Shown in pieces: positions 4,381 to 17,557 of a stretch of 23,476 bases of DNA. Within the stretch, counting starts at the first letter, position 1. Each line of letters begins with the position of its first letter. This stretch comes from a virus, in the IMG/VR virus record IMGVR_UViG_3300025590_000046, positions 1 through 23,476 of that record; one strand, given 5' to 3'. The translations under genes and the position numbers were made by a program. The notes beneath the pieces were generated by a model. The model was not told the DNA's origin. It saw only the letters and a program-made list of their open reading frames with translations, and did not search any database.

Positions 4381-5646
4381 TTATACAATCCATGTGTTGT
4401 TAATTTCAAGTGGTTTAGACCACGCTTCAGAAGGAGCATCATCCAACCCTACTGCTAAATACCTAAAGGCATCACTAGCGTGTGAAGCCCAGTCGTGAAA
4501 TGGTCTATCATGAAAGACTGCTCTCTTCTCATCGTAAACCCGTTTATAATTTCGTAAAGCATCTAGTCCTAATTTAACTTTAGGGTCAAACCAACATCGT
4601 GGCAGTATTCTTCTAGCAGCTTGTATGCCATCCATAACCGTTAATTTAGGGGCTATAGTTACTGAAAGACCAGACTCTTCTAATACTTCTTTTCTTGACA
4701 GTCCTGTACCTAGTTCTCTTACTGCTACATCGTGTGGAAGTATGTGTGTAGCAAACATCCAGTCATGTTCTCTTAGCCAGTTAACATAATAGTCAAGACC
4801 TACGCCATGATTCTCTACAAAGTCTACTAACCGTATTTCTTTGTTAACTATTTGTGCCACCCATATGCTAGTGCTGTCTGACATACCCAAATCCCAGCCT
4901 GTAAAAGTTCTTGCTAGCTCATCTCTAGGAATATCACATATCTGATTCTTAGCTTCTAATTCATTTATTAATTTAGAGTAGTATGAGCCTTCTACTGGAG
5001 CAGAGAAGCTGCATTCAAACTCTTGGTTAAACTTATCTTCGCCCATCTCTTTATAGGCTGCTTTTAATTCACCTTCATCTAGCAATGCTGTTTGACTAGA
5101 TTTAAACTCTAACAGTTCCCATCCGTCTTTTTTCTCACCTCTATCACGCAAGTCTTTAAAATGGTTTTGCCCTTTAGGCGTTCCCATTGCTACACAGTAG
5201 CCAAGTCGGTCAGACAATGCAGGTCGCACAATTTCAGTAAATAGTGATGGGTTAATCTGCCCTACTTCGTCTAACACACATCCATCTAAGTAAATACCAC
5301 GTAAACTATCAGGGTTATCTGCACCATACAGAGAGATTCTTCTACCCATAAAGTCTACTCTTAGTTCAGCAATGTTAGCTTTTCCACCAAGAGGTCTTGT
5401 ATATTCTAGCAAGTAATCCCATGCAATCCTTTTTGCTTGGTTATACGTTGGAGCAACATACGCATATCTTGGATTATCTTTCTCACAATTTAATGCACTA
5501 TGTATAAGCTGGTTAATAGCACATACTGTTTTACCCATACGCCTATGAGCTACAACCACTGTAAATCTATTAGTCTTTACTAGCTCGTGTATTTCTTTTT
5601 GCGGTGCTCTAGGCTTGTAGCCTGTTGTTATTTGTTTTTGTGCCAT
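4381..5646 (-). CDS. terL: Terminase large subunit (DNA packaging ATPase/nuclease)
   Basis: The packaging motor of 421 residues. The ATPase domain shows a Walker A-like AHRRMGKT at residues 33-40, a Walker B GCVLDEVG with D126/E127, and motif III AMGTPKGQNHF at 153-163. The RNase H-like nuclease domain starts at FTGWDLGMSDSTS (acidic D252 and D257) and ends with HDWASHASDAFRYLAVGL, where D392 is the likely last metal ligand. The start is supported by an AAAGGAG site about 9 nt upstream. It follows the DUF1289-like gene and abuts the portal gene. Confidence 0.93.
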   Translation of the reverse strand: MAQKQITTGYKPRAPQKEIHELVKTNRFTVVVAHRRMGKTVCAINQLIHSALNCEKDNPRYAYVAPTYNQAKRIAWDYLLEYTRPLGGKANIAELRVDFMGRRISLYGADNPDSLRGIYLDGCVLDEVGQINPSLFTEIVRPALSDRLGYCVAMGTPKGQNHFKDLRDRGEKKDGWELLEFKSSQTALLDEGELKAAYKEMGEDKFNQEFECSFSAPVEGSYYSKLINELEAKNQICDIPRDELARTFTGWDLGMSDSTSIWVAQIVNKEIRLVDFVENHGVGLDYYVNWLREHDWMFATHILPHDVAVRELGTGLSRKEVLEESGLSVTIAPKLTVMDGIQAARRILPRCWFDPKVKLGLDALRNYKRVYDEKRAVFHDRPFHDWASHASDAFRYLAVGLDDAPSEAWSKPLEINNTWIV

Positions 5647-6909: not shown

Positions 6910-7350
6910 CTAATCTATCCCTGTAATAACTTTGATATTAATGGGGGCACCCCCTTCTCCAGTTAACTCTGTAGTATTTTTCTCTGACCATTGAGCACGA
7001 GTCTTAAGCCAGAATATCATAGAGGATGTATCGCCTTGTTTAGCTTTCTCATAGAGCGTACCAGCTACAGCTGCATTAGCTTCTATACGACCAAGCTCTA
7101 ATTCGTCCTTGTAATACTTAGTTAGCGTGTCTGATGATACACCAAGCACTAATGCGATATCTTCGTACCTAGTACCTACTATAGATAAATTATAAACCTT
7201 ATTTCGGGTGTCCGCTGTTGCAAGGTGCGGGGGTCTTCCCGCCTTTCTTTTGGCTACTTTTTTCAATTGAGAATCATTCTCATTTACTGTACTTGATAGC
7301 TCAGCCGTAATATTAATTATACCGCTATCTATTATATTATTGTTGTCCAT
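6910..7350 (-). CDS. terS: Terminase small subunit-like protein
   Basis: A 146-residue protein. After a variable polar N-terminus and a basic segment (KRKAGRPP, 35-42) comes a helix-turn-helix about residues 55-80 (TRYEDIALVLGVSSDTLTKY) followed by a helical EL-x-x-GRIEANAAVAGTLYEKAKQG region and a FWLKTRAQWSEK ending, a pattern typical of phage small terminase subunits that recognise packaging DNA. It sits upstream of the head operon but is separated from terL by seven small genes. The start is uncertain because no clear ribosome-binding site precedes ATG 7350 and the 23-bp repeat lies just upstream. Confidence 0.8.
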   Translation of the reverse strand: MDNNNIIDSGIINITAELSSTVNENDSQLKKVAKRKAGRPPHLATADTRNKVYNLSIVGTRYEDIALVLGVSSDTLTKYYKDELELGRIEANAAVAGTLYEKAKQGDTSSMIFWLKTRAQWSEKNTTELTGEGGAPINIKVITGID

Positions 7351-7355
7351 ATAGT

Positions 7356-7378
7356 TACTGATAGGTTTTACTTATCAC
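7356..7378 (+). repeat. 23-bp operator-like repeat, copy 1
   Basis: TACTGAT, two variable bases, then GTTTTACTTATCAC. The same element lies at 9577-9599 with 21 of 23 bases identical. Within this copy TGATAgg and cTTATCA form an imperfect inverted repeat. It sits between terS (minus) and the accessory block (plus), 6 nt upstream of the terS ATG, which suits a regulator-binding site for divergent transcription. The binding protein is unknown; the Cro-like protein at 10734 is a candidate. Confidence 0.65.
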
Positions 7379-7489: not shown

Positions 7490-7717
7490 ATGAATACTTT
7501 AGAGTTAACACAAGAGCAAATAGATTTTTTAATACAAGAGGTACAAGATAATAATAAAGCATGGAATTCTTTAGCTAGTGATTCTAAGTATGATAATAAA
7601 AAACAATCATACGGCTTATTAAACAATAAGAGCTATAAAGAATTGGCGATTATATCTGATTCTATTTTAGAAACTTTAAAAGATAACTCAATTATGAATC
7701 TATTAAAAAATAATTAG
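7490..7717 (+). CDS. Hypothetical protein (75 aa), AT-rich block
   Basis: First gene of the AT-rich accessory block, with a TAAGGA site before ATG. The product is polar and helical (starts MNTLELTQEQIDFLIQEVQD) and rich in Asn, Lys and Ser, as expected for low-GC coding. No motif is recognised. It is followed by a hairpin (7727-7751) and a separate promoter, so it appears to be its own transcription unit. Confidence 0.65.
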   Translation: MNTLELTQEQIDFLIQEVQDNNKAWNSLASDSKYDNKKQSYGLLNNKSYKELAIISDSILETLKDNSIMNLLKNN

Positions 7718-7726
7718 ATATACCTT

Positions 7727-7751
7727 AAAGCCTTTTATAATAGAAGGCTTT
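7727..7751 (+). terminator. Hairpin after the 75-aa gene
   Basis: AAAGCCTT, nine-base loop, AAGGCTTT: a perfect 8-bp stem starting 10 nt after the stop codon. It lacks a clean run of T, so termination may be inefficient. Confidence 0.45.
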
Positions 7752-7753
7752 GA

Positions 7754-7771
7754 GATTATATTTATATAATC
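7754..7771. repeat. 18-bp AT palindrome upstream of a promoter
   Basis: GATTATAT-TT-ATATAATC, an 8-bp perfect inverted repeat with a 2-bp centre. It lies 15 bp upstream of the -35 box at 7787 and could be an operator; random occurrence is more likely in such AT-rich DNA. Confidence 0.35.
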
Positions 7772-7786
7772 AAAATTTATATTAAT

Positions 7787-7815
7787 TTGACTTTTAACTC
7801 CGATTAATATATAAC
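7787..7815 (+). promoter_or_regulatory. Sigma70-type promoter for the 7848-9077 genes
   Basis: TTGACT (7787-7792), a 17-bp spacer and TATAAC (7810-7815), upstream of five closely spaced small genes that end at the terminator at 9098. Confidence 0.6.
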
Positions 7816-7847
7816 GTTAACTTAACTTTACTAAAAGGATATTAAAA

Positions 7848-8159
7848 ATGATTAATACAATACAAGATTTAAAACAATGCAATAAAAACTATTTTACTAA
7901 AGAAAATAAAAAATTCTTTAATGATATAGAATACAAAGTTTTAAAAGCTAAAAAAACAAAAACCATGTACTTAGTAACTTTAACCGCAAAATTTTCAGAT
8001 ATGTTTGACGGAATAAAAAAGTACGTTTATACCATTAAACCAATAACTGAAACGGGTTCTATTTTATCGTTTCAATTTTCAAATAATGGTGAATTAAAAA
8101 CATTTGATAATGAATTCACATCTTTAACCGATGTTAAAGAATATCTAAAAGGGGTATAA
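7848..8159 (+). CDS. Hypothetical protein (103 aa), AT-rich block
   Basis: Preceded by AAAAGGA and ATG. The product has many beta-type segments (KTMYLVTLTAKFSD, KKYVYTIKPI, SILSFQFSNNGELKTF) and ends in VKEYLKGV. The same C-terminal YLKGV ending occurs in the next gene because both end in the shared AAAAGGGG-T module that serves as the following ribosome-binding site. No family is recognised. Confidence 0.65.
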   Translation: MINTIQDLKQCNKNYFTKENKKFFNDIEYKVLKAKKTKTMYLVTLTAKFSDMFDGIKKYVYTIKPITETGSILSFQFSNNGELKTFDNEFTSLTDVKEYLKGV

Positions 8160-8160
8160 A

Positions 8161-8298
8161 ATGACAATCACTAAAAACTATAACGGTTCAGTAACAATTT
8201 CAGATATAAAAGACAATCAATACTACAACCAAACTTATTATTTTTATACCTTGAGAGAGGCTAAAAAACTATTTAAACAATATTTAAAAGGGGTTTAA
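8161..8298 (+). CDS. Hypothetical protein (45 aa), AT-rich block
   Basis: A 45-codon gene, ATG 8161 to TAA 8298, directly behind the 103-aa gene and with the strong AAAAGGGG ribosome-binding module 7 nt upstream. The product starts MTITKNYNGSVTISDI, is Tyr-rich in the middle (YYNQTYYFYTL) and ends with a helix, REAKKLFKQYLKGV. It may be a short beta-beta-alpha protein. No known family. Confidence 0.6.
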   Translation: MTITKNYNGSVTISDIKDNQYYNQTYYFYTLREAKKLFKQYLKGV

Positions 8299-8299
8299 A

Positions 8300-8506
8300 A
8301 TGAGAAAATTAAATAATACACAGAAAAAAATGATTGATAATTTTATAAAAAACAATCGTTCTGCAGGAATTTTTTTACCATGTAGCGTAATTGATTCTAG
8401 CGGTGAAATTGAAAATATAAATAGTTATGAGTCAGTTTGGAGTGACATTGAACGCTACTATTCAGACAATGTTAAGCCTCAAAAACTTACAACCTGGAGT
8501 TTATAA
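8300..8506 (+). CDS. Hypothetical protein (68 aa), AT-rich block
   Basis: Starts one base after the previous stop, behind the AAAAGGGGTTTAAA module. The product begins with a basic helix (MRKLNNTQKKMIDNFIKNNR), followed by GIFLPCSVIDSSGEIENI and an acidic, Tyr-containing C-terminus. No motif recognised. It is part of the co-oriented block that ends at 9077. Confidence 0.6.
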   Translation: MRKLNNTQKKMIDNFIKNNRSAGIFLPCSVIDSSGEIENINSYESVWSDIERYYSDNVKPQKLTTWSL

Positions 8507-8507
8507 A

Positions 8508-8795
8508 ATGAAAACATATAAACAATTAAAAGAATTTATAAATGAATTAGAATCAGATTTAAATAGATATTATAAATATGATACTAACGATTTTTTAATT
8601 AATGCCATTATAAAAGAAAATGAAAATGCTTTAAAATACTATGAAAGAATAAAATATAAATTTGAATGTAAGTTTAAATATTCCCTTGCATGGTGCTGTA
8701 AATATAAAAAGCAATATGATTTTGAAAAATATTTAAAGCATAATGAAAATAGTTTAAAGCCTTATCACTTAAATAAAGAATTAATACATATATAA
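8508..8795 (+). CDS. Hypothetical protein (95 aa), AT-rich block
   Basis: I start this gene at ATG 8508, one base after the previous stop and with TGGAG upstream; an in-frame ATG at 8427 would bury it in the upstream gene. The product is helical, very rich in Lys, Tyr, Asn and Glu (MKTYKQLKEFINELESDLN at the start), with cysteines in FECKFKYSLAWCCKYKK. No family recognised. Confidence 0.55.
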   Translation: MKTYKQLKEFINELESDLNRYYKYDTNDFLINAIIKENENALKYYERIKYKFECKFKYSLAWCCKYKKQYDFEKYLKHNENSLKPYHLNKELIHI

Positions 8796-8807
8796 AAGGG
8801 GTTTAAA

Positions 8808-9077
8808 ATGTATATAAGAGAAAATAGTTTTATAGAAAGCCTATTAAATAACATTGAGAAAAATACAGATAATAATCAACATTCTGAAAATGTTATGCTA
8901 ATCGTTTCAAATTATGGCACAGATGTTCAAAAAGAAGAATGTTATGAATTGCTACAGCATCATTTAAAAGAAGGTTCTTTATCTTCTATCACATCAACTG
9001 CTAGAAAGTATCTATTAAAAGATGTATTAAATAATATGGATAAATCACTTTCAAAGGCGATAAACTCCAAATTATAA
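8808..9077 (+). CDS. Hypothetical protein (89 aa), AT-rich block
   Basis: The last gene of the accessory block, with the AAAAGGGGTTTAAA module immediately before its ATG and a strong terminator 20 nt after its stop. The product is helical and polar; the C-terminal half reads KEECYELLQHHLKEGSLSSI and RKYLLKDVLNNMDKSLSKAI. No family recognised. Position and composition suggest a host-takeover or accessory role. Confidence 0.6.
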   Translation: MYIRENSFIESLLNNIEKNTDNNQHSENVMLIVSNYGTDVQKEECYELLQHHLKEGSLSSITSTARKYLLKDVLNNMDKSLSKAINSKL

Positions 9078-9097
9078 CCTTTCACTCCAAATACAAC

Positions 9098-9128
9098 GCC
9101 CATAATCAACCGTTATGGGCTTTTTTTT
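9098..9128 (+). terminator. Rho-independent terminator of the accessory block
   Basis: GCCCATAA, seven-base loop, TTATGGGC, then eight T. A complete intrinsic terminator 20 nt after the stop at 9077. Confidence 0.92.
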
Positions 9129-9157
9129 ATCTACTTGATACCTTATATCCACCAAAT

Positions 9158-9180
9158 AAAAAAAGGCTCTCATGAGCCTT
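9158..9180 (-). terminator. Rho-independent terminator on the minus strand
   Basis: On the minus strand AAGGCTC, four-base loop, GAGCCTT followed by seven T. It faces the plus-strand terminator at 9098. As no minus-strand protein gene lies just upstream, it marks the end of some other minus-strand transcript. Confidence 0.85.
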
Positions 9181-9445
9181 ATATAACTTTCTTTACCGTT
9201 CCATTTCTTTAGGGTATAAAATACCCTTGAGCTTTATTATAACATAATTAAAGATTAATATCAATATATTTATATAGATAAAGGTAGTTTTATATATGAA
9301 TAAAGGTGCATAAATAATAACGGGGATTTTTTAGAAAGGTTTATAATGAAATGATAAATACAATTATAGCCGTTTAATCATAGGATAAAATCGTTATCTA
9401 GTATTATATGAAAGGCTGTATATTTTTGTTATCATATGTATGGTA

Positions 9446-9480
9446 AGATAAGTTTTTCGCTAGAGGCTACAAACTTATCT
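9446..9480. repeat. 10-bp inverted repeat, 15-nt loop
   Basis: AGATAAGTTT and AAACTTATCT match perfectly around a GC-richer loop (TTCGCTAGAGGCTAC) that can itself pair weakly. It is inside the candidate noncoding RNA. Confidence 0.6.
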
Positions 9481-9542
9481 AGCTATATGAATGAACGGGT
9501 ATGAACGGTTATCTTATTTATTAATGCCTTTGTATGGTTTAG

Positions 9543-9571
9543 ATTTTATCATATTTATTTTCAAAAGTCAA
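9543..9571 (-). promoter_or_regulatory. Minus-strand promoter with extended -10
   Basis: On the minus strand TTGACT, a 17-bp spacer and TGATAAAAT (extended -10 TGnTAAAAT). It points toward the gene-free region and the terminator at 9158. The 23-bp repeat lies just upstream of it. Confidence 0.65.
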
Positions 9572-9576
9572 TGCTC

Positions 9577-9599
9577 TACTGATTTGTTTTACTTATCAC
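9577..9599 (+). repeat. 23-bp operator-like repeat, copy 2
   Basis: Second copy of the element at 7356-7378, in the same orientation, differing only at the two central variable bases (TT instead of AG). It lies between the minus-strand promoter (9543-9571) and the plus-strand early promoter (9638-9666), as expected for a shared operator. Confidence 0.65.
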
Positions 9600-9637
9600 A
9601 ATCCCCTCTTTGATAAATATAATTGTTGCTAACTGTA

Positions 9638-9666
9638 TTGACAAGATACTTTTACCTGTATAAAGT
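9638..9666 (+). promoter_or_regulatory. Early promoter for the 9708-10670 genes
   Basis: TTGACA (9638-9643) followed after 17 bp by TAAAGT (9661-9666), or after 15 bp by TATAAA. About 40 nt of leader precede ATG 9708. Confidence 0.6.
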
Positions 9667-9707
9667 TATTCCTGTTGTAAAGATAAATTAACTATATAAG
9701 GAATGAT

Positions 9708-9830
9708 ATGGATAAAGTATACATAGAATTGCTAGAAAGATACATCATAGAATTATCTATGCAAGGTTATAGAGGTCATACATTAATCAATGTTGCTAAA
9801 GAATTAGCAATTCAGGGGGTAAAATCATGA
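9708..9830 (+). CDS. Small early protein (40 aa)
   Basis: A 40-codon gene, ATG 9708 to TGA 9830, with ATAAGGA upstream. The product is amphipathic helical (MDKVYIELLERYIIELSMQG, then a second helix INVAKELAIQGVKS), resembling a short helix-turn-helix-sized fold, but no DNA-binding motif is certain. It is the first gene of the early operon and overlaps the next start (ATGA). Confidence 0.6.
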   Translation: MDKVYIELLERYIIELSMQGYRGHTLINVAKELAIQGVKS

Positions 9831-9943
9831 AGGAATACGGAGATTTAAACGGGGATGAGGATGATATTGCTTATGAGCGTCAGCTTATAGAAGATAACAA
9901 TCCTAACGATGAACCAAACTTTGATGATTGGGAGGACGCGTAA
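9827..9943 (+). CDS. Small acidic early protein (38 aa)
   Basis: A 38-codon gene coupled to both neighbours (ATGA before, TAATG after), with AGGGGGT as ribosome-binding site. The product is extremely acidic (GDLNGDEDDIAYERQ and ends NFDDWEDA). Very acidic small early proteins in phages can act as DNA mimics or inhibitors, but that is only a possibility here. Confidence 0.6.
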   Translation: MKEYGDLNGDEDDIAYERQLIEDNNPNDEPNFDDWEDA

Positions 9944-10119
9944 TGGCAGTTAAACTAAACGCTAATGGTCTTTATTCGTATGTACCAGAAACTAATAAAG
10001 AGAAATTGATAGATGAGATAACAAGTAAGCACCCTCATTTTACTTATGGCGATAATGCTGAAAGGTTATGGAATGAGGATGAGGAATATTTAGAAGATAT
10101 TATAAGGGGAGTAGCGTAA
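9943..10119 (+). CDS. Small early protein (58 aa)
   Basis: I start it at ATG 9943, which shares bases with the previous stop (TAATG) and has GGGAGGA upstream, rather than at the in-frame ATG 9928 inside the previous gene. The product begins MAVKLNANGLYSYVPETNKE and has an acidic C-terminal helix (WNEDEEYLEDIIRGVA). No family recognised. Confidence 0.65.
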   Translation: MAVKLNANGLYSYVPETNKEKLIDEITSKHPHFTYGDNAERLWNEDEEYLEDIIRGVA

Positions 10120-10295
10120 TGATAAAACTTATTTCTTTAAATTATTACGAAGGTATTGAAGAGGTAAAGCCTAAATTTCTATCGGCTTACCATAATATAG
10201 ATTCACGAATAATAAAGTTAGACTGTTTACAGGATGCAATTTATTATTTACAAGAGGAATACATTCAATTACTAGAGGGGAATAATCATGACTAA
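10119..10295 (+). CDS. Small early protein (58 aa)
   Basis: A 58-codon gene beginning at an ATG that overlaps the previous stop (TAATG), with AGGGGAG upstream. The product starts MIKLISLNYYEGIEEVKPKF and ends in a helix (DAIYYLQEEYIQLLEG). It overlaps the next gene by 8 nt. No family recognised. Confidence 0.6.
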   Translation: MIKLISLNYYEGIEEVKPKFLSAYHNIDSRIIKLDCLQDAIYYLQEEYIQLLEGNNHD

Positions 10296-10524
10296 AGCAG
10301 ATAAAGAGTTTGACGTAGGTTACCAAGTAGGCGTAAAGGCTGCAGGGCTGTTAGAAAAGAAGATAAAGAATCCTAACCATAACCATATGGCAGGGCTAGT
10401 ATCTAGCATACTAAACCTTTTGTACTTTTATGCACCGAAAGAAGAGTATGCAGACGAGTTACTAGAGTTTGCCGTAAACTTTGCTAAAGAAGAGGCAAAA
10501 GAAATGAAGGAAGGTATGAAATGA
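10288..10524 (+). CDS. Hypothetical early protein (78 aa)
   Basis: A 78-residue helical protein with GAGGGG before its ATG. It begins MTKADKEFDVGYQVGVKAAG and has a central LVSSILNLLYFYAPKEEY helix and an acidic/basic C-terminus. No motif recognised. It is joined to both neighbours by overlaps (8 nt before, ATGA after). Confidence 0.65.
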   Translation: MTKADKEFDVGYQVGVKAAGLLEKKIKNPNHNHMAGLVSSILNLLYFYAPKEEYADELLEFAVNFAKEEAKEMKEGMK

Positions 10525-10733: not shown

Positions 10734-10931
10734 ATGATGGTATCAGACGCATTAGAAAAACTAGGCAACATTAGCATTACTGATTTAGCAAAACGATTGG
10801 ATGTTAGCAGACAAGCCGTTTGGTATTGGAAGGCAAACGGACTGCCTAAACTAAGGATGTATGAGATAAGGGAGATGATAGAAAATGATAGCAAGGGAAG
10901 AGATACTAGCGAGATTCAGCAAGGTATATAG
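10734..10931 (+). CDS. Cro-like helix-turn-helix regulator (65 aa)
   Basis: A small DNA-binding protein. Residues about 13-40 (ISITDLAKRLDVSRQAVWYW) form a clear Cro/YdaS-type helix-turn-helix: a LA-x-x-LDVSR-QAV-x-x-W pattern, followed by GLPKLRMYEIREMI, the dimerisation-type helix seen in Cro proteins. GGAG lies 9 nt before ATG 10734; a second ATG follows immediately. It could repress early promoters, including those with the 23-bp repeat. Its last 47 nt overlap the primase-like gene in another frame. Confidence 0.8.
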   Translation: MMVSDALEKLGNISITDLAKRLDVSRQAVWYWKANGLPKLRMYEIREMIENDSKGRDTSEIQQGI

Positions 10932-17230: not shown

Positions 17231-17557
17231 ATGACAATAGAAAGGCTAATGGCTTTGCTAGAAGACTGGAGCTTATGGATGAAGCATGACAGTCATAGGC
17301 TAGGATACCCATCTAAATCTCTAGGAATTTCTGGAGGTCATGACTCCAGCCATGATGCCTTTGAGTTTATGGTAGATGAGTCAGATAAAAAAAATATTAT
17401 TACTATCAATGCTATTATCAATAGCCTACCAAAAGAGCAAAGAGAAGCTGTCTATGCTAGATGGTTGAAAAGTAAAAAGCCTGTGTATTATGAATTAAAA
17501 TTAGACTTAGCAATGGATAACTTATTAACAATTGCTAGCAGGAGAATATACGCATGA
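17231..17557 (+). CDS. Antiterminator Q / sigma-region-4-like protein (108 aa)
   Basis: Contains LLEDWSLWMKHDSHRLGYPSK near the start and a C-terminal LPKEQREAVYARWLKSKKPV with helix LTIASRRIYA. The W-x-x-W-x(8)-GYPS pattern plus a sigma-70 region 4-like 'P-x-x-x-R-x-A-V' helix is known from phage antitermination/late regulatory proteins of the Q or ArpU type. It is the second-to-last gene of the plus-strand region and borders the late lysis genes, which suits a late activator. Family assignment is moderate. Confidence 0.55.
   Translation: MTIERLMALLEDWSLWMKHDSHRLGYPSKSLGISGGHDSSHDAFEFMVDESDKKNIITINAIINSLPKEQREAVYARWLKSKKPVYYELKLDLAMDNLLTIASRRIYA

Follow-up and report, generated by a model that had tools for sequence, protein, structure and literature searches.

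Background

In phage lambda, control of the late genes relies on the Q-pR'-6S RNA-tR' module, in which a strong sigma-70 promoter with a G-rich initial element (GGGTTAATT) drives a short noncoding leader of about 190 nt, ended by an intrinsic terminator, with the late genes lying downstream. The put RNA of phage HK022 is a cis-acting antitermination RNA. Three Q families are named in excerpts of PMC7171158. The Q protein of phage 21 (21Q, PF06530), according to the excerpted text of PMC6606751, has a part resembling sigma region 4, preceded by a first helix of anti-sigma character. To act, it requires a pause element that resembles a -10 and lies in the initial transcribed region, together with a binding element made of two direct repeats. 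In the excerpted text of PMC7873438, StxS is a short late-promoter transcript that is made from the pR'-tR' region of an E. coli phage and stopped at tR'.

The window (the whole stretch of DNA analysed, a virus record of 23,476 bases that is probably incomplete) contains a locus with the same succession as in lambda: a strong sigma-70 promoter, a G-rich initial element, a short noncoding leader, an intrinsic terminator and late genes downstream, with a predicted Q gene present in the genome, which in many relatives stands beside the unit. The 9264-9236 promoter and the terminator behind it probably form a late-gene control leader of the lambda type (pR'-pause-tR'). The locus differs from lambda in the length of the leader (about 70 nt) and in the predicted fold of its Q, which resembles Q21 and not lambda Q. 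It also differs in that Q is encoded 8 kb away on the other strand and that oppositely oriented genes separate the leader from the late genes, and these two features count against the Q-dependent reading; since Q acts in trans, neither the distance nor the strand of its gene matters.

The principle is known, and it seems to recur here in a phage group where it is seemingly undescribed, with Q relocated and a covarying hairpin upstream. In the literature searched, late-gene control was not found described for phages of marine and fresh waters whose capsid and portal are of the SU10 type, nor was its dependence on Q. Term searches of PMC8163748 and PMC9004378, which treat phage Venkman, did not find 'antitermin', and a term search of a pelagiphage transcriptome paper (PMC12753301) found neither promoter, terminator nor antitermination. 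A Q family with an adjoining promoter-leader-terminator unit makes a concrete, testable switch, and a Q gene so far from its proposed promoter, while the leader keeps its synteny, would show that Q does not have to be encoded beside its target.

Genome context and the promoter-terminator unit

The phage has a capsid and portal of the SU10 type and encodes a DnaB-like helicase, a Sak annealing protein and a YqaJ exonuclease. Judged by terminase, the named phages closest to it are Methylophilales phage Venkman (82.8%) and the uncultured spring-water phage MW202481 (75.0%), followed by HTVC010P-like pelagiphages at about 45%. The structural genes are on the minus strand and run leftward from 7350. 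Between a cluster of small plus-strand ORFs (7490-9077) and the plus-strand early genes lies the intergenic region 9078-9709, whose minus strand carries an upstream promoter, P1, a second promoter and an intrinsic terminator (Table 1). A DNA search of 8400-10400 against the phage collection gave no match.

Table 1. Coordinates of the features discussed in the text (positions in the window)
Feature	Position	Strand	Basis or remark
Terminase large subunit (late gene)	4381..5646	-	82.8% to Venkman terminase
Small-terminase-like gene, first of the minus-strand structural cluster	6910..7350	-	PHROG 309, E 4.4e-21
Convergent terminator of the plus-strand ORF cluster 7490-9077	9098..9120	+	sequence scan
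Predicted leader RNA, about 70 nt	9158..9229	-	start inferred from -10 position
Intrinsic terminator (tR'-like): 7-bp stem, 4 G-C pairs, T tract	9163..9180	-	position conserved in relatives
Initial-transcribed element GGGTATTTTATACCC, 9 nt past the -10; proposed sigma-dependent pause region	9212..9226	-	counterpart of GGGATAATT (relatives) and GGGTTAATT (lambda)
pR'-like late promoter, TTGATA-N17-TG-TATAAT	9236..9264	-	11/12 + TG; best in the window; counterparts in relatives
Imperfect dyad TTATCCTATGATTAA (minus strand); operator or second hairpin	9374..9388		counterpart in relatives, by eye and DNA alignment
P1-transcript RNA hairpin: covarying outer stem, 3x3 internal loop GUA/GAA, inner GC/GC, loop CUCUA	9446..9480	-	covariation
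Upstream promoter P1, TTGACT-N17-TAAAAT with TG before the -10	9543..9571	-	10/12
23-bp repeat, core TTTTACTTATCAC, between the divergent promoters	9577..9599		second copy 7356-7378
Divergent early promoter, TTGACA-N17-TAAAGT	9638..9666	+	sequence scan
Predicted Q-type antiterminator, 108 aa	17231..17557	+	56-57% identical to two annotated antitermination proteins; AF2 model

A preliminary description of this DNA had proposed that P1 and the terminator enclose a noncoding RNA gene, with several hairpins and no usable frame, next to an early promoter and a 23-bp repeat. P1, the terminator, the early promoter and the repeat were found again, with no usable frame enclosed, and both P1 and the terminator turned out to be conserved in relatives. 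The longest minus-strand frame is of 23 aa, on which ground the leader was rejected as a protein-coding gene, and a 40-aa frame on the plus strand is antisense; no conserved short protein frame was noticed in the homologues compared. The predicted fold of the 381-nt strand between P1 and the terminator has a z of -2.08, and 3 of 100 shuffles did as well. A search of the window with Rfam covariance models, suggested as a check, gave no match at the gathering score, the only matches being weak and sub-threshold.

Promoters were scored by their matches to the two hexamers, plus 1 for TG, with at least 5/6 required at the -10; the early promoter at 9638 drops out of this scoring because its -10 matches at 4/6. 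Only two promoters in the 23.5-kb window score 11 or more, P1 (11) and the stronger 9264-9236 promoter (12), which the preliminary description had missed. The gap from the end of the latter to the terminator stem is 55 nt, so that the terminator belongs first to a unit of about 70 nt. At threshold 10 the sole promoter-terminator unit in the window is 9264-9155. With shuffles that keep dinucleotides, units at threshold 12 appeared once in 100 shuffled windows and never in 2000 shuffles of the intergenic region.

Simple scans are permissive: between 7000 and 12000 they returned 41 promoter-like sites, against 26.7 expected, and 6 terminator-like sites, against a mean of 1.7 in shuffles. One might therefore regard the locus as AT-rich DNA with consensus-like matches and convergent terminators that holds no dedicated unit at all. 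The shuffle controls, the covariation described below and, above all, the conservation, which largely refutes it, make this explanation highly improbable.

The leader itself is predicted to consist of a 5' hairpin, a linker and the terminator, and the fold of 9156-9230 is better than that of most shuffles (z -2.42; 4/200 as good). Given this layout and the precedent of StxS, the terminated RNA of about 70 nt might be a trans-acting small RNA, besides or instead of an antitermination leader. The likeness to StxS is one of layout only, in a short late-promoter transcript stopped at tR'. The leader sequences diverge strongly between clades, and a search of the window for complements of 11 nt found only three elsewhere in it. 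We consider such a role improbable.

Conservation of the unit in relatives

Searching viral contigs (IMG/VR) with the Q protein yielded 408 relatives, of which 80 were kept; relatives such as these are not independent samples. In the first relatives scanned, counterparts of the 9264-9236 promoter, the short leader and the terminator were present at the same place, their sequences having diverged.

The position of the unit relative to Q was then counted for 66 distinct Q proteins whose genes are followed by 180 nt or more of sequence. In 40 of them, a unit on the same strand starts at most 120 nt from the Q stop codon, compared to 1 in 1320 dinucleotide shuffles; at loci L078, L095, L140 and L210, for example, the stop codon is followed directly by a promoter and, after 50-60 nt, by a terminator. 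The remaining 26, which include the near relatives of the window, where Q is elsewhere, have no unit within 120 nt and count against the Q-dependent reading; at five of these loci (L102, L109, L114, L153 and L208) the unit is found farther on.

The unit is also mostly oriented with the late genes. Loci bearing TerL or portal genes contain 20 nonredundant units that score at least 11, and 18 of these share the strand of TerL and lie 1.7-4.2 kb upstream of it. Among 58 distinct small-terminase loci, a unit stands upstream on the same strand at 39, on the opposite strand only at 2, and at 17 there is none; counted as units, 42 are on the same strand and 7 on the opposite one. One of the two opposite-only loci, L049, has by eye a same-strand unit that the scan missed. 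The 'opposite' unit of the other, L019, was dismissed as a false orientation arising from a paralogous terminase match (46%), and is still included in the count.

Two further kinds of leader were observed. In the Venkman-type loci L163, L169, L174 and L277, the promoter-terminator unit lies only about 400-470 nt before the small terminase and has a different initial sequence; this sequence and position suggest a different Q specificity. In L045, L055, L061 and L072, another leader type is conserved (CGGAGGGTTGGGAT...), and the stretches fetched contain no Q match; these phages may use a different antiterminator, or their Q may lie outside the fetched stretch.

The predicted Q protein

Both named relatives, Venkman and MW202481, have a homologue of the 17231-17557 product annotated as an antitermination protein. 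Among 50,697 phage records, only 2 match the family, and when genome contigs were scanned with an alignment of Q, one distant relative was all that was added. The window protein matched none of the Pfam, PHROG and NCBIfam models. The cut-off of PF06530 (Phage_antitermQ) was not reached, the Venkman homologue scoring 16.4 bits against 26; 4 of 30 family members matched this model at E <= 0.1 (best 0.0011), and the window protein did not.

An AF2 model was obtained from 30 sequences with a mean pLDDT of 78.6, residues 21-44 being mostly unreliable. Foldseek matched it weakly to phage-21 Q (E 2.4-3.4). When Foldseek's own matches, 468 PDB chains, were re-aligned, phage-21 Q chains came at ranks 1, 2 and 4 over residues 2-108 (6jnx_P, Z 6.1; 6p18_Q, Z 6.0; 6p1b_A, Z 5.4), with sigma region 4 domains around and below them; a Z of about 6 is middling for a helical protein. 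Sequence matches of Q in the PDB to designed PPR proteins were discarded as sums of many repeat matches, the printed ones each having an i-Evalue above 20, and the PADLOC matches, all weak, were set aside.

By modelled fold and by context, the protein thus appears to be a Q21-like, predicted antiterminator, and by profile it is not a member of PF06530. With 21Q, its top structural match, it shares in the model a helical build with an N-terminal helix and a sigma-region-4-like part, and the locus would follow the same promoter, pause and terminator logic as excerpts of PMC6606751 describe. It differs in falling below the Pfam threshold and in its length of 108 aa, compared to 147-156 residues in the matched chains. 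The top ranks of the 21Q chains and the annotation of the homologues favour the Q-dependent reading; the absent profile matches, the high Foldseek E and the middling Z weigh against it.

The initial transcribed sequence and a proposed course of transcription

An element resembling GGGATAATT, 8-13 nt after the -10, is common to most units in the relatives. In eight units of the window clade, the best match averages 6.75/9, against 4.42 in plain letter shuffles (0/5000 as good), an optimistic p-value since the motif was picked by eye from the same sequences. The lambda pR' (NC_001416) carries GGGTTAATT, which matches GGGATAATT at 8/9, and the initial sequence of L263, GGGATTAATTCGC, may be compared with GGGTTAATTCGC of lambda. 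The window's own initial sequence matches at 6/9 only, and the Venkman-type units have no clear element, one of two matching at 3/9; both observations speak against the Q-dependent reading.

So does the search for direct repeats such as phage-21 Q binds: tested against plain letter shuffles, they showed no overall enrichment at the promoters (847 of 2000 shuffles as good). For the closest relatives of the window alone, 129 of 5000 shuffles were as good, and no claim is built on this. Hairpins in the pause region had a mean stem score of 11.18, compared to 8.82 in letter shuffles (0/1000); the stems vary in place and some units have no good one, and they are not taken as proof.

The following course of events is proposed for the 9264-9236 promoter. 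What the analysis shows is the layout of the locus, its conservation and orientation among relatives, its co-occurrence there with an often adjacent Q, and the distant fold match of Q to phage-21 Q; the start site, the pausing, the binding of Q and the read-through are inferred. Host RNA polymerase would start constitutively near 9229 on the minus strand and would pause within the first 15-25 nt or so at the -10-like, G-rich element. Without Q, transcription would end at 9163 and yield a noncoding RNA of about 70 nt. In the late phase of infection, Q would be loaded at the promoter or pause; the polymerase so modified would pass the terminator, cross the small genes of opposite orientation at 7490-9077 and enter the terminase, portal and capsid genes from 7350 leftward. 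Such a read-through transcript would be antisense to the 7490-9077 genes, and could also shut them down late.

The predicted upstream P1 transcript and its hairpin

Of 17 loci, 11 have a P1 counterpart that could be scored, at a distance of 210-280 nt ahead of the late promoter; in the other 6 it was recognised by eye only. In the window and its nearest relatives, the predicted P1 transcript carries the hairpin listed in Table 1, which by hand count starts about 30 nt after the -10 in the nearest relatives and 62 nt after it in the window. Over 6 distinct sequences, 54 of 54 cells were paired and 6 of 9 pairs showed two-sided changes, which none of 500 shuffles equalled. In targeted pattern scans of viral contigs the hairpin was restricted to the closest relatives, apart from one unrelated match in L240 that was dropped for its different context and because it is apparently coding, as judged by eye. 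L018-L024 keep P1 and the late leader, and in them no such hairpin was found. As an RNA structure the hairpin is very probably real, though narrowly distributed, and it is a candidate for a new RNA family. The late-leader model does not account for it; it may act in cis, as an origin RNA or as an sRNA.

These observations bear on the free-standing RNA of the preliminary description. On that account P1 would drive an early, structured noncoding RNA that ends at 9163 and measures at most about 375 nt; the 9264-9236 promoter would then be secondary. The conserved P1, the covarying hairpin and the lack of a usable frame agree with it, and a structured noncoding RNA is indeed likely as far as the P1 transcript is concerned. 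The hairpin is confined to close relatives, however, and the terminator travels with the 9264-type promoter, also beside Q in phages of other clades. We therefore hold this account as a whole to be rather unlikely: a noncoding transcription unit has good support, and the terminator is best understood as part of a Q-dependent late leader starting from 9264 and not of an early RNA from 9571.

The P1 hairpin recalls by description, and not by sequence, the put RNA of HK022, in that a hairpin stands close to the 5' end of a transcript from an early promoter; the analogy differs in that no genes lie on the P1 strand before the late cluster. Tentatively, the window clade might time its late genes by two stacked noncoding transcripts, the Q-controlled leader and an early P1 transcript with a new cis-acting hairpin element. 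The latter might be an antiterminator of the put kind, might block or occlude the late promoter, or might be an origin RNA. If true, a new RNA family would here be linked with a Q system that has moved far from the promoter it serves.

The stretch between P1 and the late promoter is rich in AT, with a GC content of 22.7% at 9181-9440 compared to 35.8% overall, and could be a replication origin primed or activated by the P1 RNA. In the corresponding interval, L018 (3438-3533) and L022 (1483-1588) have AT-rich tandem repeats, about 26-28 bp long, that resemble those of an origin, and the cumulative GC skew of the window has its minimum at 7-8 kb. The skew follows gene strand here, though, and the window itself has no comparable tandem repeats and no identified initiator protein; an origin at this place seems a doubtful proposition.

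Other conserved sequence elements

The spacer between the two convergent terminators (9121-9157) is kept in relatives as GGTATCAA..TAGA..AAAAA on the minus strand. The motif GATAA/TTATC occurs 13 times in the 590 bp of 9121-9710, compared to 2.95 times in dinucleotide shuffles (0/1000), and is also enriched in most of 7 relatives tested, L040 and L024 being the exceptions. Possibly, these are operator half-sites for the Cro-like protein encoded at 10734-10931.

The core of the 23-bp repeat, GTGATAAGTAAAA, stands 24-29 nt ahead of the small-terminase start in the window and in several relatives. With at most one mismatch, it was found near this start in 14 of 74 loci; the scan covered over-long stretches in L166, L184, L289 and L310, where the start is off the contig, and none of these was counted as a match. 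The repeat could be an operator or a late regulatory site.
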